From: Paenisporosarcina sp. FSL H8-0542
Lineage (GTDB): Bacteria > Bacillota > Bacilli > Bacillales_A > Planococcaceae
DNA: 64,000 nt
Reading direction: 5' to 3'
Assembly: GCF_038632915.1 (NCBI RefSeq)
Contig: NZ_CP152050.1
Span: 1,953,001-2,017,000 of the forward strand
Each line of letters begins with the position of its first letter. Position 1 is the first letter of the stretch. Positions 20,563 to 37,989 of this stretch are shown in pieces. The translations under genes were made by a program, and so were the position numbers. Below the pieces are notes generated by a model. It saw only the letters and a list, made by a program, of their open reading frames with translations, had not been told where the DNA came from and did no database searches.

Positions 20563-23500
20563 CTACTTATTACTGTTACCTTTAATGTTCAGATATAGTT
20601 TACCTTTTGCCGTCTGGCGTGTTTCGTTATTGAAGCTATCGACTGCTTTTACTTCGATTACCGCACCATTAGCTACTGTACCTTTTGGAACCGTATAATA
20701 GCCAACATAATGGCCGTTCGCTTGCTCTGTCATTGGCAATTCTGTAGCGTTTTGAAGTTGTCCGCCCATATTTGTTAGTGGCATATGGATTACAAAAGTT
20801 GATTTTAATCCAGGTTCACTATCAAATTCGATTTTGACAGTCTTACCAGTTTTAAGATTGAGATCTTGGTCTGGTTTTAAGTTTGTAATGACAGGTGAAA
20901 CATATTTTGCATGTACTGTCACTGTTTTCGACATGCTGTTGTTTGCTTTATCTCTTGCTACAACAGTAATTTCATTTGCACCAGTATCCAAAAGTATACG
21001 TTTTGAATATTTTCCGTTTACAACTGCTGCAATTTGACCGTTTACTTTCACCCAATCAAGGTTGGCATCTGCGACACTACCTTCTACTGTAACCGTTTCC
21101 CGATTTGTTTTATCTCCGTTTTTCGGGCTGTCGATTGTTAGATTTGGTTTCACTGTGTCCAAGATAACAGATACCGGAGCAGATTCGCCCGTTACTTTAC
21201 CATCAAGAGATGAAGTCGCTGTAAATACATTCAATCCTTCTGTCAATTCGGTTTGAATGGCAAATTTACCATCATTTCCTACTACTACAGAACCTGCAAC
21301 TCCACCATTATTTTTAAGTTTAATTGTTGTTGTAGGTGATGCACTGCCTTCAATAGTAATAGCTGACTTATTCGTTGCTAAATCAGAAGTTGGCGAAGTA
21401 ATGACTGGTGCACTTACTTCATAACTTACACGAGCACGGATCATATAGTTTCCTTCCTCTGCAGGGGAAGCTGTCCATGTACCTGAAACAGATTGGTAAC
21501 TTCTTTCCGCGTTTGTTCCATCTTCATCAGCAGCAAGTCCTGGTGAGTTTGGATTCGCAACTGTTTGTCTGTAAACCATGTAGAAGTCACCATTTACAAC
21601 GATGTTATGTTCAGATAAGTCTACTACCGTCCATTGACCGTTGCGTAATGCTGTTGCATTAATTGATTCTGTGAGTTTTTTACCTGGTGTTCCATCAGGA
21701 CCAGTAGCATCCCAAACTTCCACTGCAAATGCTGTTCCACCTGGTACTGGCCACTCAGTGTCCCAGAAACGGAATACGCCATCAGTAACAATGCCATTTT
21801 CTTTCCCTTCAGGAAGAGACATTTTCACTGCCCAAGCATTACCCGCTGCATTGAATGCGTGTGCATTTTCAGCTGTTCCATCATCATAACCAATTTCACC
21901 ACCTGGATATGTGTAGAACGGATCAAGTGCAAGACTTAATTCAAGTGCGTTTGCACCGATTGTAACGGATGTTTCTTTACTATGGTAGCCGCGTGCAATT
22001 ACCTTGAGTGTATAATTTCCTTCGTAAGCTGTGATGCTGTAGTTTCCTGATGCATCTGTTTCAACAGGAGTGATATTGGCATCTTCAACAAGTAGAAGTG
22101 TCGCGCCTTCGATTCCTTCTCCTGTCGATTCGTCAGTAATTGTTCCACTTACAGTGTTTTGTGCAATTTCATCCAAAGTGAAATTCGCTTGTGCTGTTGC
22201 GTCAGCTTCGATTGTCACCGTCTGTTGATTTGTGTGGTATCCATAAGCTTCCGCTTTCATTTTGAATGTACCAGGAACATGCGTCATTGAATATGTGCCA
22301 TCTGCAGGATTTGTATATACTGAACGTCCTGATTCAAGCACACTGACTTGTGCACCAATAGGCAATAAAGTCGGATTAATCGGTGCCTCAGATACTGGCA
22401 ATTCTTCTTTTACAGGCATTGAAGGTCTGATTTTTGTTGGATCAATCGCTTCTTTCATTGCTTCTTTATCATCAACTTTGATTAAGTCTAGACCAATGTT
22501 GCCTTTATTATCTTTTGAAACATTCTCAGTTTGGGCAATATCGGTTAAAGCAACATCATCGATATACCAACCGTCTCTCACAACACTGCCATCGGAGAAT
22601 GCATTGAATGCCAAGTAAACTCGTTGACCACTATACGCTGACAAGTCTACTTCACCATCTATCCATGAACCCGAATCACCTTGGTACTTCTGTAATTGAG
22701 TCCACTCTTGTTGGTCAGTGGAAATAAAAACATGACCATAATCCCATGCTCTTCCTGTTGAAGATTGTTCAAAATTATGCCAGTGTTTAAACTGCAGATA
22801 CGAATTACCTTCTGGCAGATCAACTGGAGGGAGAACAAGTGTTGCGTTCATGTTACTGTCATACTTACCTTCTAAATTTGTTGCATATACTTTTTCACCA
22901 GATGCCGCATTTCCTGGTCCAGAAGTAGGAACTCCCCACTCCCAGCTGTTCATATTTCCGAATGAACTCCAGCCTATTGCAGCAGTTTCAAAATCTTGGA
23001 AGTAACCAACAGTAATACCCGGTTTCACTTCAACCAAATATTCTTCACTATTGACAACGTTGTTTCCGAAATCATTGATGATCCATTTATAAGTGAATGA
23101 TCCCCCTGTTACTGAAGTTCCAGGAACCGTAACAGCGTATTCACCAACTTTGTAGTCTCCAGAAATTCGTGGAGCCACCATAGTTTGCCATTCATTGTTT
23201 CCATCCAAATAACTTAATTCAACTGATGAAACGCTGATGTTATCTGTTACTGTTACAGCCAAGTCTAGATCCATACCTTCATACGTTTCTATAGGAGAAC
23301 TATGTTCAAAGACTGGTGCTTCATCATCTTCACCTTGTTTCGTAACTTGTCCACCAATTTTTCCAATACCGTTCATGATTGAAGACACCGCTTCATACGC
23401 ATTAACTAAACCATATCCATACCCGTGATTCGGTGTTTGTGGATATTGTGAGTCAGTTAATGGGATTGCTGTTTCAAGTAAAATTTGTTCCATTTCTTCA

Positions 23501-24903
23501 ACGGTTAAGTTAGCGTTTACTTGGCGCAACAATGCCGCGACCCCGGATATAGCTGGTCCAGCCATTGATGTTCCATTCCAGCCGCCTTCATAGCCACCAC
23601 CAGGTACAGAAGAACGGATATTTACTCCTGGAGCCGAGATATCTGGTTTGATTTCAGCATAAGGAGAAGGTCCTCGTAAAGAGAAATTACCTACTACGTT
23701 GTTAATATCAGTTGCACCTGTTGCAAATGATTCAGGATAGTTTGCAGGTGATGCAACAGAACCCGGACCACCTGGATTTGTTGGCGTTGTGTTTCCTGCT
23801 GAAAATTCAGGGAAAATTTCTGCTGCACGCCAGTTTCTGACTACATCACGATACCATTCGTCAAGACCTGGACCACCGCCCCACGAGTTGTTTACAACAT
23901 CTGGTGCTAAGTCTACGCGTGCATTTCCTTCAGAATCTGTTGGTGCTAAAATCCATTGTGCAGCTTCTAATAAATCCGCATCTGTACCACCATTTGCAGT
24001 AAAAGCTTTTACAGAAATGAATTTAGCACCAGGAGCTACTCCAACCTGGTTGGAACCGTTTGTTTCACTACCTACCATTGTTCCAGTCACGTGAGTACCA
24101 TGACCATGATCATCATAAGGTGTAGCTCGTCCAGCTGTAGCGTCAAACCAGTTAAAGTCATGATCTGTTTGACCTGTTGAAGAATTATAACCACGGTATT
24201 TTTCTTTTAATGCTGGATGATCCCATTGAACCCCCGTATCAATGCTCGCTACAACCGTTCCTGCTCCATCAATTCCCATCGCCCATACATCTGGAGCTTT
24301 AACACGTTGAACATTCCATTCAATATTGGCAACTTCAGATTCAGGCGCCACAGCTTCTTTCGTTTTTGTTGTGAAAAGTTGTCGCATTTCATTCGGTAGC
24401 ACTTTTTCAACTTCTGCAAATGATGCTACCTTTTCTGCAACTTCTTTCGTTGCTGTTACAGCCATCCCATTTACAATATAATACGAATTAATATCCTTAA
24501 CATTTCCTTTAGCTTCTTCTTGTTCAAGATAATCTTTTACATTTTGCTGCTCTTGAAGGGAAGTCGCTTTTAGCTCAGACACTAATGCAGAACGCTGGAC
24601 CATTAATGATTTTTTAGAAGATAATTTCGCTTTTTTAGAACTTTTCCTAGCCTCTTCCACCACTTTTTTCGTATCCGCTTTTTCTTTGAATTTTATTAAG
24701 AAGGTAACTTTCTCATCTTCTTTAAAATCCGACAGCAAACGTTTGCTCACTTTTTCGATTGTATTCACGTTCGAATTATTAAGCGACTGGTGCAGTTTAC
24801 TAGTTGTTTCGGCACTCGCGACTCCAGGTGCGATTAGAGACAAGGTCATGAGTAAAGAAACAGCAATGTTGAAAGACTTTTTAGAACTAATTTTCTTCGT
24901 CAT
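20563..24903 (-). CDS. bpr: Bacillopeptidase F-like secreted subtilase, copy 1 (active-site intact)
   Basis: A 1446-residue secreted serine protease. Domains in order: a signal peptide ending around ASA (residues 29-31), an inhibitor-I9 propeptide (about 60-175), a subtilase S8 domain (about 200-500), then MAM-like, two carboxypeptidase-regulatory-like, and Bacillus Ig-like/glucodextranase-B-like beta domains to the end. The catalytic triad is Asp222 (SIDTGV), His268 (GHGTHVTG) and Ser446 (NGTSMAGP). Architecture and length match B. subtilis Bpr (about 1433). There is no LPXTG or C-terminal anchor, so it is released. AGGGAGG precedes the ATG at 24903. It is the most diverged of the three copies in this window. 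Confidence 0.93.
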   Translation of the reverse strand: MTKKISSKKSFNIAVSLLMTLSLIAPGVASAETTSKLHQSLNNSNVNTIEKVSKRLLSDFKEDEKVTFLIKFKEKADTKKVVEEARKSSKKAKLSSKKSLMVQRSALVSELKATSLQEQQNVKDYLEQEEAKGNVKDINSYYIVNGMAVTATKEVAEKVASFAEVEKVLPNEMRQLFTTKTKEAVAPESEVANIEWNVQRVKAPDVWAMGIDGAGTVVASIDTGVQWDHPALKEKYRGYNSSTGQTDHDFNWFDATAGRATPYDDHGHGTHVTGTMVGSETNGSNQVGVAPGAKFISVKAFTANGGTDADLLEAAQWILAPTDSEGNARVDLAPDVVNNSWGGGPGLDEWYRDVVRNWRAAEIFPEFSAGNTTPTNPGGPGSVASPANYPESFATGATDINNVVGNFSLRGPSPYAEIKPDISAPGVNIRSSVPGGGYEGGWNGTSMAGPAISGVAALLRQVNANLTVEEMEQILLETAIPLTDSQYPQTPNHGYGYGLVNAYEAVSSIMNGIGKIGGQVTKQGEDDEAPVFEHSSPIETYEGMDLDLAVTVTDNISVSSVELSYLDGNNEWQTMVAPRISGDYKVGEYAVTVPGTSVTGGSFTYKWIINDFGNNVVNSEEYLVEVKPGITVGYFQDFETAAIGWSSFGNMNSWEWGVPTSGPGNAASGEKVYATNLEGKYDSNMNATLVLPPVDLPEGNSYLQFKHWHNFEQSSTGRAWDYGHVFISTDQQEWTQLQKYQGDSGSWIDGEVDLSAYSGQRVYLAFNAFSDGSVVRDGWYIDDVALTDIAQTENVSKDNKGNIGLDLIKVDDKEAMKEAIDPTKIRPSMPVKEELPVSEAPINPTLLPIGAQVSVLESGRSVYTNPADGTYSMTHVPGTFKMKAEAYGYHTNQQTVTIEADATAQANFTLDEIAQNTVSGTITDESTGEGIEGATLLLVEDANITPVETDASGNYSITAYEGNYTLKVIARGYHSKETSVTIGANALELSLALDPFYTYPGGEIGYDDGTAENAHAFNAAGNAWAVKMSLPEGKENGIVTDGVFRFWDTEWPVPGGTAFAVEVWDATGPDGTPGKKLTESINATALRNGQWTVVDLSEHNIVVNGDFYMVYRQTVANPNSPGLAADEDGTNAERSYQSVSGTWTASPAEEGNYMIRARVSYEVSAPVITSPTSDLATNKSAITIEGSASPTTTIKLKNNGGVAGSVVVGNDGKFAIQTELTEGLNVFTATSSLDGKVTGESAPVSVILDTVKPNLTIDSPKNGDKTNRETVTVEGSVADANLDWVKVNGQIAAVVNGKYSKRILLDTGANEITVVARDKANNSMSKTVTVHAKYVSPVITNLKPDQDLNLKTGKTVKIEFDSEPGLKSTFVIHMPLTNMGGQLQNATELPMTEQANGHYVGYYTVPKGTVANGAVIEVKAVDSFNNETRQTAKGKLYLNIKGNSNK

Positions 24904-28093: not shown

Positions 28094-28140
28094 ATACAAA
28101 AAAACAAGACCATTTATCAGGGATAAGTGGTCTTGTTTTT
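28094..28140 (-). terminator. Rho-independent terminator of bpr copy 2
   Basis: An 18-bp stem with one G-T wobble (28101-28118 with 28122-28139) is followed by a T-rich tract on the minus strand. It lies 66 bp beyond the stop codon of bpr copy 2. Confidence 0.85.
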
Positions 28141-28205
28141 TAAAGTATTATTTGAGTCACGGAAATTTTTTATCAGCCATTGCAATTCTAATTGGGATAT
28201 AGGTT

Positions 28206-31200
28206 TTACTTGACATACACTTTACCAGCGGCTGTTCGACGAGATTCATTTCCATAAGCATCTCTCAACGCCACTTCGATCACAGCACCGTTGATCCTGT
28301 CTTTTGGTGCCTTCCAGGTACCAACATAGTGACCTTTTCCTTGTTCTGTTAATGGTATTTCAACAGAAGCGGCGGTTGCGGATGCAAAGGCTGAAGGTAC
28401 GCTTAACGAGAAGAAACCACTAATTCCTGGCTCACTATCTAGTTCGACGGTCAACGTCGTACCCCTTTTTATCACCACATCTTGAGCTGGTTTTAAGTTT
28501 TCGATCGCAGGTGGAATAAACTTGGCGTAAACAGTGACTTCATTGCTAGTTTCGTTTCCAGCACGGTCCTTTGCAGTGACAGTAAATTTATTTTCTCCAT
28601 TATTAAGCAGTATATCTAGGGAGTAGGAGCCATCTTCTGTGACATTCACTTTTTGACCATTTATAGTGACTTCTGATAGATATGGATCGGTCGCTTTTCC
28701 TTCGATCGTAACTGCTTGTTTATTTGTCTTTAAGCCATCAGCAGGTTTGGTGGTTAGTTCTGGTTTTGCTTGGTCAAGGGTAATCTTCACTGGCTCGGAC
28801 GGATCCGTACTGCCTCGATCAGTAGAAGATGAAGCTGTCAGCACGTTCTCACCATCTTGAAGGGTAACATCTACAGAGAAGGTGCCATCCTTTTTAGCTG
28901 TTGTGATAGCTACTTCTTCGCCTTTATTGAAAAGATGAACTTGAGTAGTTGGTGAAGCTTTCCCTTCTACTGTGAAGGTAGATTGATTGGTGTGGGCTGC
29001 ATCTTTAGGCGTTGTGATCACTGGAGCCGACGCATCATATTTTACCCGTGCCCGAATCATTACGTTTTCGTAACGGTCTGGGGAGAAAACTCCGTCAACC
29101 AGTTGCCAGCTGCGACTAGCGGTTGGACTGCTTTTATCAACACCGAGTCCTGGTGTATTCGGGTAGGAGCCTACTTGGATATAGACCATATAGAAGGTGT
29201 CGGTTACCACGACTCCTTCGCTTTCCAGATCGACAACCGTCCATTCTCCATTACGCAGAGCAGTCGCATCAAATGGACCCGCAATTTTTTTACCAGGAGT
29301 ATTATTCGGTCCATTATCATAGATGGCAACCTTAAAGGCTGTTCTACCTGGATCCGGCCAACTTTCATCCCAGAAGCGGAAGAGACCAGCGGTGACTAAG
29401 GCGCTTTTTTTACCTTCAGGTAAAAACATTTTTACAGCCCAACCATCTCCAGCAGTAAACGAAGCATTATGATTTTCTGCTGTCCCATCATCATAGCCGA
29501 TCTCATCAGGATAGCCGACAAATGGTTGTAACGGAACGTTTTGTTCGATATTTCCGTTTGCTGGTATGGTGATCGTGATATCTTGACTATGATAGAAAGG
29601 CGCGGTTACATGCAAGGAATAGGTTCCTTCATAGGCAGTGATGGAAAAGTGTCCGTTTTCATCTGTTTGTACAGGTTGAATGAGCGCGTCTTCGAGCAGA
29701 GAGAGCGTTGCGTTAGCTAGCGGCTGACCTGTTTGCTTATTTGTGACAGTTCCGCTAACCGTTCCTTTCGGGATCGGGTTTATAGTAAAGTTGGCTTCTA
29801 CTGTACCATTTTTAGGAATCGTCACTCGTTGATCTGCAGATTCATATCCATATGTTTCAGCACGTAAGGTGAACTCACCAGAAGGATGAGAATTAATAAC
29901 ATAGCTACCATCAATTGGGTTGGTGGTAACAGAACGTCCTGATTCGAGCACACTTACTGTAGCTCCAAGTGGCAGGGACATGGGTTGGACTGCTGTCGGC
30001 GTGATTGTCGCGGCGGGTGCCATCACGTTTTGTATTTTGGTTGGTTGGATGGTATCCGGGTTGACTGCTTTTTTATTGGTTTGTGGCTCATTTTCCAGTT
30101 GTTTAGCTAACAGTTTTTGTTGTTGTACATCTTCTAGTTCTATATTGGCTGTGGCATGTGGTGTATTGCTTAAGGCGACATCATCGATATACCAACCTGC
30201 GCTCCCATAAGCAGCGTCTGTAGTGACGTTAAAGGCGATAAAGATTTGTTGACCAGCATATGCGGATAGATCGATCTGGCGCTCCGTCCATGTGTCAGAT
30301 TTACCAGTGAAGCGGGACAGCTGTTGCCAATTTTGTTTGTCTGTCGACACAAGCACATGACCATAGTCGGCGAAGCCGTCCGCTGTGGCGTTGTCAAGTC
30401 GATACCAGTCTTTAAACTGTAGATAGGCGTTACCTTCAGGCAAGTCGATTGGAGGCATCATCAAGTTCATATTGGCATAGTTGGCATAGTTGCCATTTAA
30501 TTTGGTTCCGTATACTTTTTCACCAGAAGCGGCCATTCCTGGTCCACCGGTAGGTACTCCCCACTCCCAGCTGTTGTTGGTACCGTAGGAGATCCAACCA
30601 CTTGGTTGAGATTCAAAATCTTGATTGTACCCGGTGCTGATTCCAGATTTGACTGGTACTGCGTAATTGTCAGAAGTAACCACATGTTGCGCATAGTCCG
30701 TGATGCGCCAATGATAGGTAAGGGTTGGGACCTGTACGGCATCAGCCGGAATCACGGCTTGGTAAGTTCCGCTCTTATAGTCACCTGCTGTACGAGTTGC
30801 AGCTACAGTTTGCCATTCGGCAGATTCGCTTGCACGATATTTTAGCTCAACACTTCTTACATTGACATTATCTTGTACTTGAATAGTAAGAGGTAATGTC
30901 ATATTCGCATATAATTCAGTTGGAGCGGTATGCTGATAAGTTGGATTCTCTGTATCTTGACCTTCACGAACCACTTGTCCCTGAACTCGGCCTATTCCGT
31001 TGACAATGGCGGAGACAGCGTTATAGGCGTTTACTAGACCATGACCATAACCATTGTTTGGTGAAGTTGGATAGGTGGAGTCAGTTAATGGTATTGCCGA
31101 ATTCATTAAAATTGCTTCCATTTCATCAACGGTAAGAGAGGCATTCGCCTGCTTCATCAAAGCAACGACTCCAGCAACGGCTGGTGCAGCCATCGAAGTT

Positions 31201-32549
31201 CCTTGCATGCCTCGATATAGACTACCTGGTACGGAAGATCGGATGGCCACACCTGGAGCGGAAATGTCTGGCTTCCCTTCTCCATATGGCGAAGGACCGC
31301 GTGAGGAGAAACCAGCAATCCGATTCTCACTATCAGTTGCGCCAACAGCGAACGATTCCGGATAGTTGGCTGGGATAGAGATGCTTCCAGCATTCGGACC
31401 GACATTTCCAGCAGAGAAATTAGGGAAAATATCGGCTGCACGCCAGTTTTGCACCATTAGGCGGTACCATTCATTTATTCCATTTCCACCGCCCCAGGAG
31501 TTGTTCACTACGTCAGGTGCTTTTTCTGGATGTGGGTTGCCTTCTGCATCTTTTGGAGCTAGAATCCATTCTCCAGCTTTCAGTAGATCTTCGGCGGTTC
31601 CACCGGCCGAGGTAAAGGCTTTCACCGCGATCCATTTTGCACCTGGAGCGACACCGATTTGGTTCGTGCCATTAGGCTCAGAACCCACCATCGTACCCAC
31701 GGTGTGAGTTCCGTGACCAAGATCATCAAAAGGTGCAGATTTTCCCGTAATAGCGTCATACCAGTTGTAAGTGTTATCAGGTTGATTTGGATTGGCTGGG
31801 TTGTAACCCCGATACTTTTCTTTTAAAGCAGGGTGATTCCACTGGACTCCTGTATCGATACTAGCGACTACAGTTCCCGCACCATCAATGCCCATATTCC
31901 AGACATGTGGTACGTCGATTTTTGCAATATTCCATTCGATTGAAGTGGTGTCTGCTTGGGTATCAGCTGTTGGTTGGATGGGTGTTTTACTGCTTTCATT
32001 TGAGATCAGCTGTACCGTTTCGTTGGGCTGGATTTTTTCGACTTCAGGGAAGGCAGCAAGCTTCTCCATCACTTCTTTGGTTCCTGTCACCGCCATGCCA
32101 TTGACGATATAGAAGGATTGAAACTCTTTGACATTTCCCTTCTTTTTTTCTTGATCCAGATAGGTTTTGATCGAGTATTGAGTTTCGCTAGCTTTAGTGC
32201 GAAGGGAAGAAACGACAGCAGAGCGTTTCATCAATTCGGTTTTGGCAGCCGTTTGTTTTTGAGCTTTAGCCTTTTTAGCTGTTTCGGTGGCAACTTCTTT
32301 TGTATCCACTTGATCTTTTAATTTTACTAAAAAGGTAACCGTATCATTCTCACTAAACTGATCATTCAGTTTTTTATCTACCTTTGCTTTCACGTTTTCA
32401 GATGCTACATCCGAACTTTCAAGAAGAGAAATACTTTCTTCGGAGTTGGAATTAGCAAAGGTGAGTTGAGTTAGAAAGGTTGAGAGCAACAATAATGCAC
32501 ATAAAATAAAACTAAATGCAATGCGGTAATGTCTGTTCCTTTTTATCAA
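28206..32549 (-). CDS. bpr: Bacillopeptidase F-like secreted subtilase, copy 2 (active-site intact)
   Basis: A 1447-residue Bpr paralogue with the same layout as copy 1: signal peptide (to about residue 32), I9 propeptide, S8 domain, MAM-like domain, carboxypeptidase-regulatory-like domains and C-terminal Ig-like domains. The triad is Asp232, His279 (GHGTHTVG) and Ser452 (QGTSMAAP). Its DNA is very similar to copy 3 downstream on the window, including long near-identical stretches in the last two thirds, so the pair arose by a recent tandem duplication. Translation must begin at the TTG at 32547-32549 behind GGGGGG, because the ATG used by copy 3 is ATA here. Confidence 0.93.
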   Translation of the reverse strand: MIKRNRHYRIAFSFILCALLLLSTFLTQLTFANSNSEESISLLESSDVASENVKAKVDKKLNDQFSENDTVTFLVKLKDQVDTKEVATETAKKAKAQKQTAAKTELMKRSAVVSSLRTKASETQYSIKTYLDQEKKKGNVKEFQSFYIVNGMAVTGTKEVMEKLAAFPEVEKIQPNETVQLISNESSKTPIQPTADTQADTTSIEWNIAKIDVPHVWNMGIDGAGTVVASIDTGVQWNHPALKEKYRGYNPANPNQPDNTYNWYDAITGKSAPFDDLGHGTHTVGTMVGSEPNGTNQIGVAPGAKWIAVKAFTSAGGTAEDLLKAGEWILAPKDAEGNPHPEKAPDVVNNSWGGGNGINEWYRLMVQNWRAADIFPNFSAGNVGPNAGSISIPANYPESFAVGATDSENRIAGFSSRGPSPYGEGKPDISAPGVAIRSSVPGSLYRGMQGTSMAAPAVAGVVALMKQANASLTVDEMEAILMNSAIPLTDSTYPTSPNNGYGHGLVNAYNAVSAIVNGIGRVQGQVVREGQDTENPTYQHTAPTELYANMTLPLTIQVQDNVNVRSVELKYRASESAEWQTVAATRTAGDYKSGTYQAVIPADAVQVPTLTYHWRITDYAQHVVTSDNYAVPVKSGISTGYNQDFESQPSGWISYGTNNSWEWGVPTGGPGMAASGEKVYGTKLNGNYANYANMNLMMPPIDLPEGNAYLQFKDWYRLDNATADGFADYGHVLVSTDKQNWQQLSRFTGKSDTWTERQIDLSAYAGQQIFIAFNVTTDAAYGSAGWYIDDVALSNTPHATANIELEDVQQQKLLAKQLENEPQTNKKAVNPDTIQPTKIQNVMAPAATITPTAVQPMSLPLGATVSVLESGRSVTTNPIDGSYVINSHPSGEFTLRAETYGYESADQRVTIPKNGTVEANFTINPIPKGTVSGTVTNKQTGQPLANATLSLLEDALIQPVQTDENGHFSITAYEGTYSLHVTAPFYHSQDITITIPANGNIEQNVPLQPFVGYPDEIGYDDGTAENHNASFTAGDGWAVKMFLPEGKKSALVTAGLFRFWDESWPDPGRTAFKVAIYDNGPNNTPGKKIAGPFDATALRNGEWTVVDLESEGVVVTDTFYMVYIQVGSYPNTPGLGVDKSSPTASRSWQLVDGVFSPDRYENVMIRARVKYDASAPVITTPKDAAHTNQSTFTVEGKASPTTQVHLFNKGEEVAITTAKKDGTFSVDVTLQDGENVLTASSSTDRGSTDPSEPVKITLDQAKPELTTKPADGLKTNKQAVTIEGKATDPYLSEVTINGQKVNVTEDGSYSLDILLNNGENKFTVTAKDRAGNETSNEVTVYAKFIPPAIENLKPAQDVVIKRGTTLTVELDSEPGISGFFSLSVPSAFASATAASVEIPLTEQGKGHYVGTWKAPKDRINGAVIEVALRDAYGNESRRTAAGKVYVK

Positions 32550-32592
32550 TTTGATTTCCCCCCTAAAATTTGCTTACATTAAGACTTCATTT

Positions 32593-32642
32593 TAGAATCA
32601 TCTTTCACCTTTCACCTAAAAGGTAAGTGAAAGATGATTCTA
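32593..32642. other. Hairpin between bpr copies 2 and 3
   Basis: A perfect 16-bp inverted repeat (32593-32608 with 32627-32642) encloses an imperfect inner hairpin. It lies 12 bp past the stop of copy 3 and about 45 bp upstream of copy 2. It lacks the T-run expected on the minus strand, so it may be a weak terminator or an mRNA-stabilising end. Confidence 0.6.
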
Positions 32643-32654
32643 TCAATCTATGAT

Positions 32655-35600
32655 TTACTGAGGTTTTACGTTGACATACACTTTACCAGCGGCTGTTTGA
32701 CGAGATTCGTTTCCATGATCATCTCTCATCACCACTTCGATCACAGCACCGTTGATTTTTTCTTTTGGTGCCTTCCAGATACCAACATAGTGACCATTTC
32801 CTTGCTCTGTTAATGGTATTTCAACAGAAGTGGCGGCTGTCGTTGCGGTTGCAAAGGTTGAAGGTAATCGGACCAAGAAGAAGCCATTAATTCCTTGCTC
32901 ACTATCTAGTTCGACGGTCAACGTTTTACCCGTTTTTATCACCACATTTTGAGCTGGTTTTAAGTTTTCGATCGCAGGTAGATTAAACTTGGCGTAAACA
33001 GTGACTTCCTTGCTAGTTTCGTTTCCAGCACGATCCTTTGCAGTGACAGTAAATTTATTTTCTCCATTATTGAGTAGTACGCGTAGGGAGTAGGAGCCAT
33101 CTTCTGTGACATTCGCATTTTGACCATTTATAGTGACTTCTGCTAGATATGGATCGGTCGCTTTTCCTTCGACCGTAACCGCTTTCTGATTCGTTTTGAA
33201 ACCTTCAGCAGGTTTGGTGGTTAGTTCTGGTTTTGCTTGGTCAAGGATGATCTTCACTGGCTCGGACGGATCTGTACTACCTCGATCAGTAGAAGAGGTA
33301 GCTGTCAGCTCGTTTTCACCATCTTGAAGGGTAACATCTACAGAGAAGGTACCATCCTTTCTAGCTGTTGTGGCAGCAACTTCTTCGCCTTTATTGAAAA
33401 GATGAACTTGAGTAGTTGGTGAAGCTTTCCCTTCTACTGTGAAAGTAGATTGATTGGTGTGGGCTGCATCTTTAGGCGTTGTGATCACTGGAGCCGACGC
33501 TTCATATTTTACCCGTGCCCGAATCATAAAGTTTCCAGTCGTTCTACCCCATGGCCCTTCCACCTTTTGCCAGCTACGACCCGCGCTTGGACTGCTTTGA
33601 TCAATAGCAAGACCTGGTGTATTCGGGGCGACGCCTACTTGGATATAGACCATATAGAAGTCGTCGTTTACTAGAACTGGGTTTACCAGATCGACAACCG
33701 TCCATTCTCCATTACGCAGAGCAGTCGCATCTAATGGACCCGCCAATTTTCTACCAGGAGCACCATTCGGTCCACTGGTATCATAGATGGCAACCTTAAA
33801 GGCTGTTCCACCTGGATCCGGCCAACTTTCATCCCAAAAGCGGAAGAGACCAGCGGTGACGAAGGCGCTATTTTTGCCTTTAGGTAGAGACATTTTTACA
33901 GCCGCAACGTTGTTTTCTGCATTAGGAGCACCGAAAGCGCGAGCGTTTTCCGCTGTCCCATCATCATAGCCGATCTCATCAGGATAGCCGATAAATGGTT
34001 GTAACGGAACATTTTGTTCGATATTTCCACTTTCTAGGATAGTGATCGTTAAATCTTGGCTATGATAGATAGGCCCAGATACATGTAAGGTATAGGTTCC
34101 TTCATAGGCAGTGATGGAAAAGTGTCCGTTTTCATCTGTTTGTACAGGTTGAATGAGCGCGTCTTCGAGCAGAGAGAGTGTTGCGTTAGCTAGTGGCTCA
34201 CCTGTTTGCTTGTTTGTGACAGTTCCGCTAACCGTTCCTTTTGGGATCGGGTTTAAGGTAAAGTTGGCTTCTACTGTACCATTTTTAGGAATCGTCACTC
34301 GTTGATCTGCAGATTCATATCCATATGTTTCAGCACGTAAGGTGAACTCACCAGCAGGATGAGTCATACCATAGCTACCATCCGCTGGGTTGGTGGCAAC
34401 AGAACGTCCTGATTCGAGCACGCTCACTGTAGCTCCAAGTGGCAGGGACATGGGTTGGACTACTGTCGGCGTGATCGTGGCGGTAGGTGCCATCACGTTT
34501 TGTATTTTGGTTGGTTGGATGGTATCCGGGTTGACTGCTTTTTTATTGGTTTGTAGCTCATTTTCCAGTTGTCTAGCTAACATTTTTTGTTGTTGTACAT
34601 CTTCTAGTTCTACATTGGCTGTGGTAAGTGGTGTATTACTTAAGGCGACATCATCGATATACCAACCTGCTCTCTCGCCAATCTCGTCTGTGGTGACGTT
34701 AAAGGCGACATAGATTTGTTGACCAGCATATGCGGATAGATCGATTTGGCGCTCCGTCCATGTCATAGAGTTACCAGTGAACCTCGACAGCTGTTGCCAG
34801 TTTTGTTTATCTGTCGACACAAGCACATAACCATAATCGTAGCCGCTTTCAATTTGATACCAGTCTTTAAACTGCAGATAGGCGTTACCTTCAGGCAGGA
34901 CGATTGGAGGCATCATCAAGCTCATATTGGCAAAATTGTTATAGTTACCATCTAAATTGGTTCCGTACACTTTTTCACCAGAAGCGGCCTTTTCCGGTCC
35001 AGAGTCAAAGGCAGGCACTCCCCACTCCCAAGTGTTTTTGGTACCGTAGGAGATCCAACCAATTGGTTGAGATTCAAAATCTTGATGGTAACCGGTGTTG
35101 ATTCCAGATTTGACTGGTACTGCGTAATTGTCAGAAGTAACCACGTGTTCCCCATGGTCCGTGATGCGCCAATGATAGGTAAGGGTTGGGACCTGTACGG
35201 CATCAGCCGGAATCACGGCCTGGTACGTTCCGCTCTTATAGTCACCTGCGGTAAGAGTTGCCGCCGCTGTTTGCCATTCGGCAGTTTCGCTTGCACGATA
35301 TTGTAGCTCTACACTTCTTACACTGACAGTGTCTTGTACTTGAACAGTAAGAGGTAATGTCATATTCGAATATGTTTCAGATGGAGCGGTATGCTGATAA
35401 GTTGGATCCTCAGTATCTTGACCTTCACGAACCACTTGTCCCTGAACTCGGCCAAGTCCGCTGACAATGGAGGAGACAGCGTTATAGGCGTTTACTAGAC
35501 CATAACCATAACCATTGTTTGGTGAATCTGGATAGGTGGAATCAGTTAATGGCATTGCCGTATCATGTAAAATTTGTTCAATTTCATCAACAGTAATAGA

Positions 35601-37037
35601 TGGATTCGCCTGCTTCATCAAGGCAACGACTCCAGCAACGTGTGATGCACCCGCCGAAGTCCCATTCAATGCTTGATAGCCGCTACCTGACCAGGCAGAG
35701 CGGACGCCCACACCTGGAGCGGAAATGTCTGGCTTCATTTCTCCATATGGCGAAGGACCGCGTGGGGAGAAATAAGCACGCTGATTATTACTATCCGTTA
35801 CGCCAACAGCGAACGATTCCGGATAGTTGGCCGGGTTCCAGATGTTTCCCTCAGTCAAACCTGCTCCATTTCCAGCAACGAACACAGGGAAAATCTCAGC
35901 TGCACGCCAGTTTTGCACCATTGGACGGTACCATTCATCGTTTTCTGCTAGTCGTTTACCCCAGGCGTTGTTCACTAAGTCAGGTGCTTTTTCTGGATGT
36001 GGGTTGCCTTCTGCATCTTTTGGAGCTAGAATCCATTCTCCAGCTTCCAGTAGATCGACTTGGGTTCCGGTTCCACCTCGACTGTTAAAGGCTTTCACGG
36101 CGATCCATTTTGCACCTGGAGCAACCCCAATTTGATTTGAACCATTAGGTCCAGAACCTACCATGATTCCTGTGACGTGGGTACCTTGTTCAGCGTCATC
36201 ATATGGAGCCGACTTCCCATTAACAGCATCAAACCAGTTGAAGGTATTGTCAGGTTGATCTGGATTAGCTGGGTTGTAACCTCGATACTTTTCTTTTAAC
36301 GTAGGGTGATTCCACTGGACTCCTGTATCGATACTAGCGACTACAGTTCCCGTACCATCAAAGCCCATATTCCAGGCTTGTGGTGCGTCGATTTTTGCTA
36401 TATTCCATTCGATTGAAGTGGTGCCTGCTTGGATATCAGCTGTTGGTTGGATATCAGCTGTTGGTTGGTTGGATGTTTCACTGCCTTCATTTGAGGTCAG
36501 CTGTACCGTTTCATTGGGTGTTATTTTTTCGACTTCTGGGAAGGTAGCAAGCTTCTCCATCACTTCTTTGGTTCCAGTTACCGCCATGCCATTGACGATA
36601 TAGAAGGATTGAAACTCTTTGACATTTCCCTTCTTTTTTTCTTGATCCAGATAGGTTTTGATAGAGTATTGAGTTTCGCTAGCTTTAGCGCGAAGGGAAG
36701 AAACGACAGCAGAGCGTTTCATCAATTCGGTTTTGGCAGCCGTTTGTTTTTGAGCTTTAGCTTTTTTAGCTGTTTCAGTGGCAACTTCTTTTGTATCCAC
36801 TTGATCTTTAAATTTCAATAAAAATGTAACCGTTTCATTCTCACTAAACTGATCATTCAGTTTTTTATCTACCTTTGCTTTCATGTTTTTAGATGCTACA
36901 TCAGAACTTTCAAGCATTGAAATACTTGCTTTGGAGTTGGAATTAGCAAATGTGAGTTGAGGTAGAAAGATAGAGAGCAACAATAATGCACATAAAATAA
37001 AACTAAATGCGACGCGGTCATGTCTGTTCCTTTTCAT
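32655..37037 (-). CDS. Bacillopeptidase F-like protein, copy 3, catalytic His replaced by Gln (probable pseudoprotease)
   Basis: A 1460-residue full-length Bpr paralogue: signal peptide, I9 propeptide, S8 domain, MAM-like, carboxypeptidase-regulatory-like and Ig-like domains. Asp237 (SIDTGV) and Ser461 (NGTSAGASH) remain, but the catalytic His is Gln284 in DDAEQGTHVTG (codon 36188-36186, CAA). The Ser loop is also altered (GTSAGAS for GTSMAAP), and NNSWGGG has become NNAWGKR. Yet the frame is intact over 4.4 kb, so the protein is kept. A PTADIQ hexapeptide is repeated twice just before the S8 domain. The ATG at 37035-37037 follows GGAG with good spacing. Confidence 0.92.
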   Translation of the reverse strand: MKRNRHDRVAFSFILCALLLLSIFLPQLTFANSNSKASISMLESSDVASKNMKAKVDKKLNDQFSENETVTFLLKFKDQVDTKEVATETAKKAKAQKQTAAKTELMKRSAVVSSLRAKASETQYSIKTYLDQEKKKGNVKEFQSFYIVNGMAVTGTKEVMEKLATFPEVEKITPNETVQLTSNEGSETSNQPTADIQPTADIQAGTTSIEWNIAKIDAPQAWNMGFDGTGTVVASIDTGVQWNHPTLKEKYRGYNPANPDQPDNTFNWFDAVNGKSAPYDDAEQGTHVTGIMVGSGPNGSNQIGVAPGAKWIAVKAFNSRGGTGTQVDLLEAGEWILAPKDAEGNPHPEKAPDLVNNAWGKRLAENDEWYRPMVQNWRAAEIFPVFVAGNGAGLTEGNIWNPANYPESFAVGVTDSNNQRAYFSPRGPSPYGEMKPDISAPGVGVRSAWSGSGYQALNGTSAGASHVAGVVALMKQANPSITVDEIEQILHDTAMPLTDSTYPDSPNNGYGYGLVNAYNAVSSIVSGLGRVQGQVVREGQDTEDPTYQHTAPSETYSNMTLPLTVQVQDTVSVRSVELQYRASETAEWQTAAATLTAGDYKSGTYQAVIPADAVQVPTLTYHWRITDHGEHVVTSDNYAVPVKSGINTGYHQDFESQPIGWISYGTKNTWEWGVPAFDSGPEKAASGEKVYGTNLDGNYNNFANMSLMMPPIVLPEGNAYLQFKDWYQIESGYDYGYVLVSTDKQNWQQLSRFTGNSMTWTERQIDLSAYAGQQIYVAFNVTTDEIGERAGWYIDDVALSNTPLTTANVELEDVQQQKMLARQLENELQTNKKAVNPDTIQPTKIQNVMAPTATITPTVVQPMSLPLGATVSVLESGRSVATNPADGSYGMTHPAGEFTLRAETYGYESADQRVTIPKNGTVEANFTLNPIPKGTVSGTVTNKQTGEPLANATLSLLEDALIQPVQTDENGHFSITAYEGTYTLHVSGPIYHSQDLTITILESGNIEQNVPLQPFIGYPDEIGYDDGTAENARAFGAPNAENNVAAVKMSLPKGKNSAFVTAGLFRFWDESWPDPGGTAFKVAIYDTSGPNGAPGRKLAGPLDATALRNGEWTVVDLVNPVLVNDDFYMVYIQVGVAPNTPGLAIDQSSPSAGRSWQKVEGPWGRTTGNFMIRARVKYEASAPVITTPKDAAHTNQSTFTVEGKASPTTQVHLFNKGEEVAATTARKDGTFSVDVTLQDGENELTATSSTDRGSTDPSEPVKIILDQAKPELTTKPAEGFKTNQKAVTVEGKATDPYLAEVTINGQNANVTEDGSYSLRVLLNNGENKFTVTAKDRAGNETSKEVTVYAKFNLPAIENLKPAQNVVIKTGKTLTVELDSEQGINGFFLVRLPSTFATATTAATSVEIPLTEQGNGHYVGIWKAPKEKINGAVIEVVMRDDHGNESRQTAAGKVYVNVKPQ

Positions 37038-37053
37038 CAATTCGACTCCTCTC

Positions 37054-37067
37054 TGAAATCGCTTACA
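37054..37067 (-). promoter_or_regulatory. Catabolite responsive element (cre) upstream of bpr copy 3
   Basis: On the minus strand the 14-mer TGTAAGCGATTTCA fits the Bacillus CcpA consensus TGWAANCGNTNWCA at every position. It lies 17 bp upstream of the ATG, partly at the ribosome binding region, a position where CcpA would repress. In copy 2 the aligned sequence has an indel and lacks the central CG. Confidence 0.6.
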
Positions 37068-37911
37068 TTAAGACTTGCGTTACAAGGATATTTTTTATTG
37101 TTGTAGATGACCACCGACTTTCTATGGATAGATTTGATTCTTGACCTTAGCTTTCTTTTCCCCCCCTTGCATGATAATGAATACAATTCGAAGTGTACAT
37201 CCGCCTAAAAAAATAGTAAATTGGGGGATTTCACTTGAAACCATTAATATATTTTTTGAAAATTCAATAATAAAAAATGTTATTTAAGTCCTTATTTCAA
37301 AAGAATTTTCAGTTATTTTGTAGAAAAATGTTGTTAATATTGTCTGAAATTTTAGTTTTTTAATGAACTTAGTTTTAAAATTTGGGGGAATATAGAAATT
37401 TCTCGTAATTTTTTAGAAATACATTTAACAATAATAGATTAAAACAGGAAAAAAGTTCTATTTGTTGATATTCCAGATAAATAAAAAAACCTTGATAACA
37501 TATTGTTTACCAAGGCTCTGTATATAGTGGTTCACCCACATGTTAATTAGAAAAATCAAAGTAATTTCGCATTAATAATTTTGGCAATCTCATTAAATCT
37601 TCAAATGAAATCTATTTCCCAATTTTCTTCGTATCAATTAGGAATAATTGGTCTGCAACCTGCCGTTAGTTTAAGTGAAGACCTTCACAATCTCAATGAC
37701 ATATTCAAACTCGAATAATCTAATTAAACACCCCTTTAGATAACCATATCCAAAGGGATATAACGGTACATCTTTTTTATAAACGGTATGACTTTATTTC
37801 AAAGCTACACCAAGGGGAGAAACTGGATCAACACATAAAGGATTTTAGTACGAAACAATATTTGAAAGGAAATCGTTCTACTCCCCTTCAATGCTAACTT
37901 CCAAAAAATTT
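37068..37911. other. AT-rich spacer between bpr copy 3 and ypvA
   Basis: About 840 bp without an intact gene. It contains one orphan terminator-like hairpin (37484-37517). The stretch 37520-37900 read on the minus strand gives short coding-like scraps (for example DVPLYPFGYGYLKG) broken by stops, which may be remains of a lost gene. I do not assign them to a family. Confidence 0.5.
37484..37517 (-). terminator. Orphan terminator-like hairpin
   Basis: On the minus strand CCTTGGTAAACA pairs imperfectly with TGTTATCAAGG and is followed by seven T residues. No intact gene lies upstream of it within 400 bp, so it may mark the end of a decayed gene. Confidence 0.6.
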
Positions 37912-37960
37912 AATAAAAAAAACTGAAGACAAACTCAAAAATGCGAGGTTGTCTTCAGTC
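37912..37960 (-). terminator. Rho-independent terminator of ypvA
   Basis: On the minus strand an 11-bp stem, ACTGAAGACAA with TTGTCTTCAGT, is followed by TTTTTTTT-ATT. It lies 30 bp beyond the ypvA stop. Confidence 0.88.
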
Positions 37961-37989
37961 TGAGCCTATTTATCAGGATGGACTTTACT

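Follow-up and report, generated by a model that had tools for sequence, protein, structure and literature searches.

A bacillopeptidase F-like gene without its catalytic histidine, found in tandem with an intact paralogue in nine genomes, as a candidate secreted pseudoprotease

Here, we describe a bacillopeptidase F-like gene of Paenisporosarcina sp. FSL H8-0542 in which glutamine replaces the catalytic histidine and which stands in tandem with a paralogue whose catalytic triad is intact. The window that we analysed, a stretch of 64,000 nucleotides at positions 1,953,001-2,017,000 of a single-contig 3.63-Mb genome, holds three such genes, all on the minus strand (Table 1). We take them to be copies of the gene for bacillopeptidase F (Bpr), no family of that name having come out of the profile matches. 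Copy 3, hereafter gene A, has the altered site, and copy 2, gene B, is its neighbour. We lean, if only slightly, towards the reading that A is a functional exported pseudo-subtilase whose former catalytic cleft has become a non-catalytic binding site working with B. Gene A would then be the first gene of a mobile two-gene cassette, and B would provide a bacillopeptidase F-like protease with an intact triad. The A protein would be secreted, would fold with its prodomain like an unprocessed pro-subtilisin, and would be unable to process itself. Its remodelled cleft would bind a changing ligand without cutting it, either a substrate, a protein of a prey or competitor organism, or some factor that acts on B, and proteolysis would be done by B. 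We infer both the A:B partnership and the existence of this ligand; the least certain step is that the two proteins would touch each other or act on the same target.

Table 1. Features of the window discussed in the text, with positions counted from its first letter
Feature	Position	Strand	Remarks
Gene A (copy 3), candidate pseudo-bacillopeptidase F	32655..37040	-	1460 codons from ATG 37037; TTG 37040 also possible
CAA (Gln) replacing the catalytic His	36186..36188	-	codon read, and alignment to solved subtilisins
Catalytic Asp codon, kept	36327..36329	-	residue 238 (TTG = 1), by alignment
Oxyanion-hole Asn codon, kept	35868..35870	-	residue 391, by alignment
Catalytic Ser codon, kept, in NGTSAGAS	35655..35657	-	residue 462, by alignment
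I9 prodomain match of gene A	36498..36698	-	residues 115-181, Pfam; confident in the structure model
S8 domain match of gene A	35499..36356	-	residues 229-514, Pfam
Gene B (copy 2), intact triad	28206..32549	-	directly downstream of gene A
Copy 1, ordinary Bpr orthologue	20563..24903	-	common to other Planococcaceae; outside the insert
Insert of about 9.85 kb	28121..37972		holds A, B and the stretch upstream of A; relatives G005, G003, G004 and G006 lack it at the matching place

The initial annotation had noticed a glutamine at the catalytic histidine position of copy 3, an intact frame of 1460 codons, and the GHGTH histidine retained in copies 1 and 2, and each of these observations was confirmed. 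The plus-strand letters at the site are TTG, which give CAA on the minus strand, and this glutamine (residue 284 counted from the ATG, 285 from the TTG) sits opposite the catalytic histidine of solved subtilisins, while copies 1 and 2 carry His268 and His279 in GHGTH. The frame from 37040 to 32655 is open, with 1461 codons from the TTG or 1460 from the next codon, ATG. The remodelled surroundings that had been pointed out are equally real in the alignment: the serine loop reads NGTSAGAS in copy 3 versus QGTSMAAP in copy 2, NNAWGKR replaces NNSWGGG, and the loops around the kept aspartate, asparagine and serine are unlike those of copy 2. The copy 3 of Paenisporosarcina sp. HGH0030, a second strain of the species, with 98.3% protein identity over 1462 aligned positions, has the same glutamine in a separate assembly, and a sequencing error is therefore an unlikely source of the codon. 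Neither such an error nor an ordinary lone mutation was retained as an explanation, since eight further A genes also lack the histidine.

The domain content of gene A is Bpr-like. Above their cut-offs, its Pfam matches are I9, S8, InhA-like MAM, CarboxypepD_reg, Glucodextran_B and Big_6, so that Ig-like and CarboxypepD-like domains are both present, and a choice-of-anchor J domain also passes its own cut-off. All three copies match I9, S8, MAM-like, CarboxypepD-like, Glucodextran_B and Big_6 models, some of them below cut-off in copy 1. Thus, copy 3 has the complete Bpr-like architecture of I9 prodomain, S8 domain and Bpr-type tail, and shares with Bpr the series of I9 prodomain, S8, InhA-like MAM, CarboxypepD-like and Ig-like or related domains; it differs from Bpr in its replaced histidine, its altered cleft loops, its tandem arrangement with an active copy and its fast evolution. 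As it lacks the Asp/His/Ser triad through the change from His to Gln, it ought not to be classed with the active S8 peptidases. None of the Pfam and NCBIfam models that it passes above cut-off marks it as dead, and such proteins are therefore easily annotated as peptidases. The fold itself appears to be kept: an AlphaFold model of residues 33-545 (mean pLDDT 80.1) has a predicted subtilase fold with a confident prodomain and a low-confidence linker, and its best Foldseek matches are pro-subtilases, several of them solved unprocessed. The model of copy 2 has a like fold (pLDDT 78.1).

The A-B tandem was found as ten pairs in nine genomes: the window genome, HGH0030, Cytobacillus citreus, Neobacillus niacini, Sporosarcina globispora DSM 4, Peribacillus alkalitolerans, Bacillus sp. 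7884-1 and two further genomes, G685 and G655, the latter with two pairs. The overlapping searches covered 261 genomes of the family, 398 of the class, 397 of an order and, from two other families, 193 and 43, with only the best few candidates scored in each genome; a scan with one genome per species gave eight loci, six of the A-B lineage and two ordinary Bpr-like. In Bacillus sp. 7884-1 the contig ends remove the start of A and cut B, whose start is visible after A, so the set comprises 10 A genes and nine complete B genes. B lies directly downstream of A in the nine loci (9/9) where both are complete; in the tenth, A is followed by the start of B. Every A gene has the tail and an open frame over at least 1372 codons (10/10, one of them cut by the contig start). 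Gene A is about 47-65% identical to ordinary full-length Bpr-like proteins.

Aligning many Bpr homologues had been proposed as a check on the dead copy. The catalytic histidine is lost in all 10 A genes, to Gln in eight and to Arg in two, and the second histidine of the HGTH motif is also gone in six of them. The serine is lost in eight of the 10 (Met in five, Tyr in two and Gln in one), being kept in the two Paenisporosarcina copies, and the aspartate is kept in all. Asp, His and Ser are all present in the nine complete B genes, and the triad is likewise kept in 59/59 other Bpr-like proteins, in an alignment of 71 rows of which 12 are pair genes and from which rows identical over 400 residues, matches weaker than E 1e-100 and matches not covering the domain were left out. 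Judged from this alignment, the loss of the histidine in the A lineage is more than chance. Thus, catalytic residues have been lost in a conserved lineage with open frames, and copy 3 fits the description of a subtilase pseudoprotease, with its lack of catalysis deduced from the altered residues. One could argue that the A of the window still cuts, slowly or by substrate-assisted catalysis, as the copies of the window and of HGH0030 keep Asp, Ser and the oxyanion Asn and have lost only His. Indeed, engineered His-to-Ala subtilisins with residual or substrate-assisted activity exist. The loss of Ser in most A genes, however, indicates that, taken as a whole, the lineage does not rely on catalysis, and we consider residual cutting very improbable.

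The window genome contains 30 S8 subtilase genes in 3.6 Mb (31 Pfam matches, one gene being in two pieces). Besides copy 3, one S8-like protein of this genome (L157:1-1449), with a long C-terminal region, has Lys at the His column in a weak alignment, and a subtilase gene at L153 (G000:C1:3028414-3029132) has its pieces in two frames.

How did the pair reach this species? In the relative G005, the sequences flanking the pair can be aligned at 88-90% identity and window positions 28120 and 37973 meet within 4 bases, and in three others the same flanks lie 43 (G003), 437 (G006) and 1184 (G004) bases apart with the pair absent. As these relatives lack both genes at the matching place, A and B arrived together, as a unit. 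Scoring the two best candidates per genome, we found the pair in 2 of the 261 family genomes, both of this species. Vertical inheritance in Planococcaceae, which this distribution and the four relatives without the pair led us to reject, is unlikely. The G+C content is 0.39-0.49 inside the genes versus 0.32-0.43 in the neighbours, copy 1 included, a modest difference. A 10-base direct repeat, ATTTATCAGG, is present at both ends of the insert (window 28112-28121 and 37968-37977). Between the two genes, in the stretch 32550-32654, a long hairpin without a T run was read by eye.

The trees leave room for more than one history of the dead state. The catalytic-domain tree unites the eight Gln-type A genes in a single clade (support 100/99) and joins the two Arg-type A genes to their own Bs (94/91). 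A single A clade is not rejected by the AU test for the catalytic domain (p 0.127), is borderline for the MAM-like region (p 0.063) and is rejected for the C-terminal tail (p 0.007). This conflict among regions points to either partial homogenisation between A and B or a second origin of A, and on the sequences at hand both are possible.

Gene A is kept, and it evolves fast. The dN/dS comparison of copy 3 with copy 2, another check that had been proposed, gave 0.62 for the catalytic domain, 0.21 for the prodomain, 0.54 for the MAM-like region and 0.63 for the tail. Across the lineage, the M0 omega of the catalytic domain is 0.69 in A and 0.61 in B versus 0.055 in four ordinary orthologues (ordinary Bpr orthologues: 0.05-0.07), and that of the prodomain is 0.25 in A and 0.45 in B. 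The A prodomain is under purifying selection. Site-class models, run with custom code and a fixed topology on nine A, eight B and four ordinary sequences (HGH0030 left out as near-identical), favoured M2a over M1a in the A genes with 2dlnL of 122.6 for the catalytic domain, 24.2 for the MAM-like region and 62.2 for the C-terminal tail. The corresponding values in B are 32.4, 15.3 and 23.9, and the catalytic domain of the ordinary orthologues gives 0.0. Codons above a posterior of 0.95 number 19/319 (catalytic), 19/271 (MAM-like) and 9/586 (tail) in A, and 3, 2 and 2 in B.

Within the catalytic domain of A, the fast change is concentrated in the former cleft. We placed the cleft ranges by subtilisin numbering, which we take to hold here, and with a cleft set fixed in this way after the site list had been seen, 16 of the 19 fast codons fall inside it (Fisher p 1.5e-8), including the former catalytic serine and its neighbours. 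Protein change in the A cleft is 2.4-5 times faster than in the rest of the domain. In a site-class test with own branch lengths, 2dlnL is 69.7 for the A cleft, 16.2 for the B cleft and 18.2 for A outside the cleft. Fitting separate branch lengths to the nine A genes, omega is 1.40 in the cleft (p 0.09) versus 0.44 outside it (p 1e-8 against 1); B has 0.71 and 0.53, and ordinary orthologues have 0.07 both inside and outside. For the five Neobacillus-type A genes the values are 1.58 (p 0.25) and 1.27 (p 0.48), and as the latter is not below 1, purifying selection outside the cleft is not supported in this clade. Strong positive selection averaged over the cleft was rejected as a description: the omega of 1.82 (p 2e-6) obtained on a shared synonymous scale falls to the 1.40 above once the scale is separate. 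Moreover, pairwise Fisher tests did not find dN above dS in the cleft (p 0.07 or more in 10/10 A pairs), and in eight of the 10 pairs the cleft has the higher synonymous change. Together, the tests on the cleft's own synonymous scale and the raised synonymous change mean that loss of constraint explains part of the signal.

The cleft of A has thus been released from ordinary constraint, and a mean cleft omega above 1 is only suggestive. That some of its codons change faster than neutral is supported, with the caveats that the A sequences number only nine and that gene conversion or multi-base changes can look like positive selection. Nor is the dead cleft alone in changing fast: B and the MAM-like region of A do so too, less strongly.

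Could A simply be a decaying duplicate caught early? The raised omega of the catalytic domain, about 1 across it in the Neobacillus-type A genes, is what decay would give, but the ten open frames, the presence of one and the same dead state across nine genomes from several genera and the low omega outside the cleft over the nine A genes argue so strongly against it that we give it hardly any credence. The initial annotation had proposed a pseudoprotease under selection, and the open frames, together with the omega values outside the cleft and in the prodomain, indicate a gene that is kept. Of the pattern that it regarded as speaking against this idea, a dN/dS near 1 accompanied by decay, only the first half was found: omega is raised, and near 1 in places, and there is no decay.

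It is also conceivable that the cleft was merely freed from constraint, and that A is a structural, adhesive or substrate-binding protein acting through its beta-domain tail. This idea, whose tail-based role had also been raised by the initial annotation, would agree with the presence of the tail in all A genes, with the choice-of-anchor J, Ig-like and CarboxypepD-like domains, and with a cleft omega that, given a separate synonymous scale, does not significantly exceed 1. The MAM-like region, with as many fast codons as the catalytic domain, partly bears it out; the catalytic domain, however, has the strongest site-class signal, with weaker ones in the MAM-like region and the tail. The signal within the cleft itself and the cleft insertions and residues (GGTGTQVDL-like, SWGK or SWGS) common to Gln-type A genes of several genera are also difficult to reconcile with a role of the tail alone, which we judge rather unlikely.

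Another explanation would be that A regulates B in trans, its I9 prodomain, which A would be unable to remove by itself, acting as a chaperone or inhibitor of B, or the two proteins forming an A:B complex. The prodomains of A and B are 80-93% identical, and in 9/9 genomes none of the other three regions compared is as similar between A and B; the A prodomain is, as noted, under purifying selection, and 7/8 Gln-type A genes have a longer linker from prodomain to S8 domain than B. CspC and CspA of Clostridioides difficile form a heterodimer, a precedent for a complex of subtilase pseudoproteases, but one that excludes the active CspB (PMC12880746). Moreover, the A prodomain may be kept only as an aid to the folding of A itself, the B prodomain shows no greater conservation, the linker is not lengthened in the two Arg-type A genes or in the A of Bacillus sp. 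7884-1, and the fast cleft is left unexplained. We regard regulation in trans as unlikely, although not negligibly so.

Finally, A could serve as a decoy, taking up protease inhibitors that target B; a decoy role had been suggested for copy 3. A dead paralogue adjoining an active enzyme, with fast-changing codons in both clefts, is what one would expect of such a system. As a mimic of B, however, A is not supported: its cleft does not track its own B (54.7% identity versus 53.2% to other Bs, a comparison of whole-cleft identity only), and most A genes have lost residues that are fixed in B, such as the Phe and Ser/Met at positions 424, 462 and 463. The chance that A is such a decoy seems to us slight. 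A partner role for A, the first half of the earlier idea of a partner processed by copy 2, is plausible given the constant adjacency of the two genes, and it belongs to the reading that we favour, in which the remodelled cleft would bind and B would cut.

Several of the pairs have a regulator gene close by. Its best solved-structure match is NprR (E 1.7e-13), and no NCBIfam family was found for it at E 1e-5. The distance between this NprR-like gene and the pair is 0.5-2.1 kb in C. citreus, N. niacini, P. alkalitolerans, G685 and pair i of G655, and a partial, partly masked copy of the gene is present by the S. globispora pair. None was seen beside the pair in the window, in HGH0030 or at pair ii of G655, and the Bacillus sp. 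7884-1 contig is too short to judge. In selected intergenic stretches beside these regulators, we saw no convincing candidate for a pheromone gene. That the NprR-like protein regulates the pair is only a guess. In the window genome, four of the five NprR-like genes lie within 2.6 kb of a subtilase domain (G000:C1 1658112, 3259095 (L165), 3394931 and 3484608) and the fifth is 223 kb away; were the genes placed at random, the probability of at least four falling within 5 kb would be about 2.5e-4. Just upstream of B, two tandem copies of a 20-base sequence resembling GTTGGTGGCCATCTACAACA occur at L052:5903-5941, L055:10485-10523, L057:8508-8546, L142:10142-10180, L143:4759-4797 and L144:9230-9268, and the window has a single variant upstream of A (37100-37118). 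These repeats are a possible operator.

Inactive proteases are known from other systems. The scabies mite has a serine-protease group of inactivated paralogues, with binding roles. To our knowledge, the inactivated paralogues of the mite are not paired with one active neighbour, and they differ from A in belonging to other protease folds and to an animal parasite. A multicopy family of inactivated cysteine-protease paralogues is also described in the mite, and these resemble A in being inactive paralogues of secreted-type proteases (PMC5956821). The best studied relatives in kind of copy 3 are CspC and CspA of C. difficile, which like A are subtilase-fold pseudoproteases with an active relative (CspB), and which differ from it in being spore germination proteins. 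Copy 3 scores far below the NCBIfam cut-offs for both CspC (36.6 of 675 bits) and CspBA (40.9 of 1250 bits). Among the matches listed from open-licence papers, those on bacterial subtilase pseudoproteases concern the Csp proteins of C. difficile and its relatives, and none deals with the A-B pair or with a Bpr pseudoprotease.

It is tempting to speculate further that the cleft of the dead twin is a diversifying recognition surface, and that A is a secreted pseudoprotease serving as receptor, adaptor or anti-competitor protein and co-evolving with its protease in a mobile cassette, at several loci by an NprR-like quorum-sensing regulator gene; this is a tentative proposal, possible rather than probable. 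If our reading is true, the A-B cassette would be a protease/pseudoprotease pair separate from Csp, horizontally moved and probably secreted, with a clear testable site in its dead cleft.
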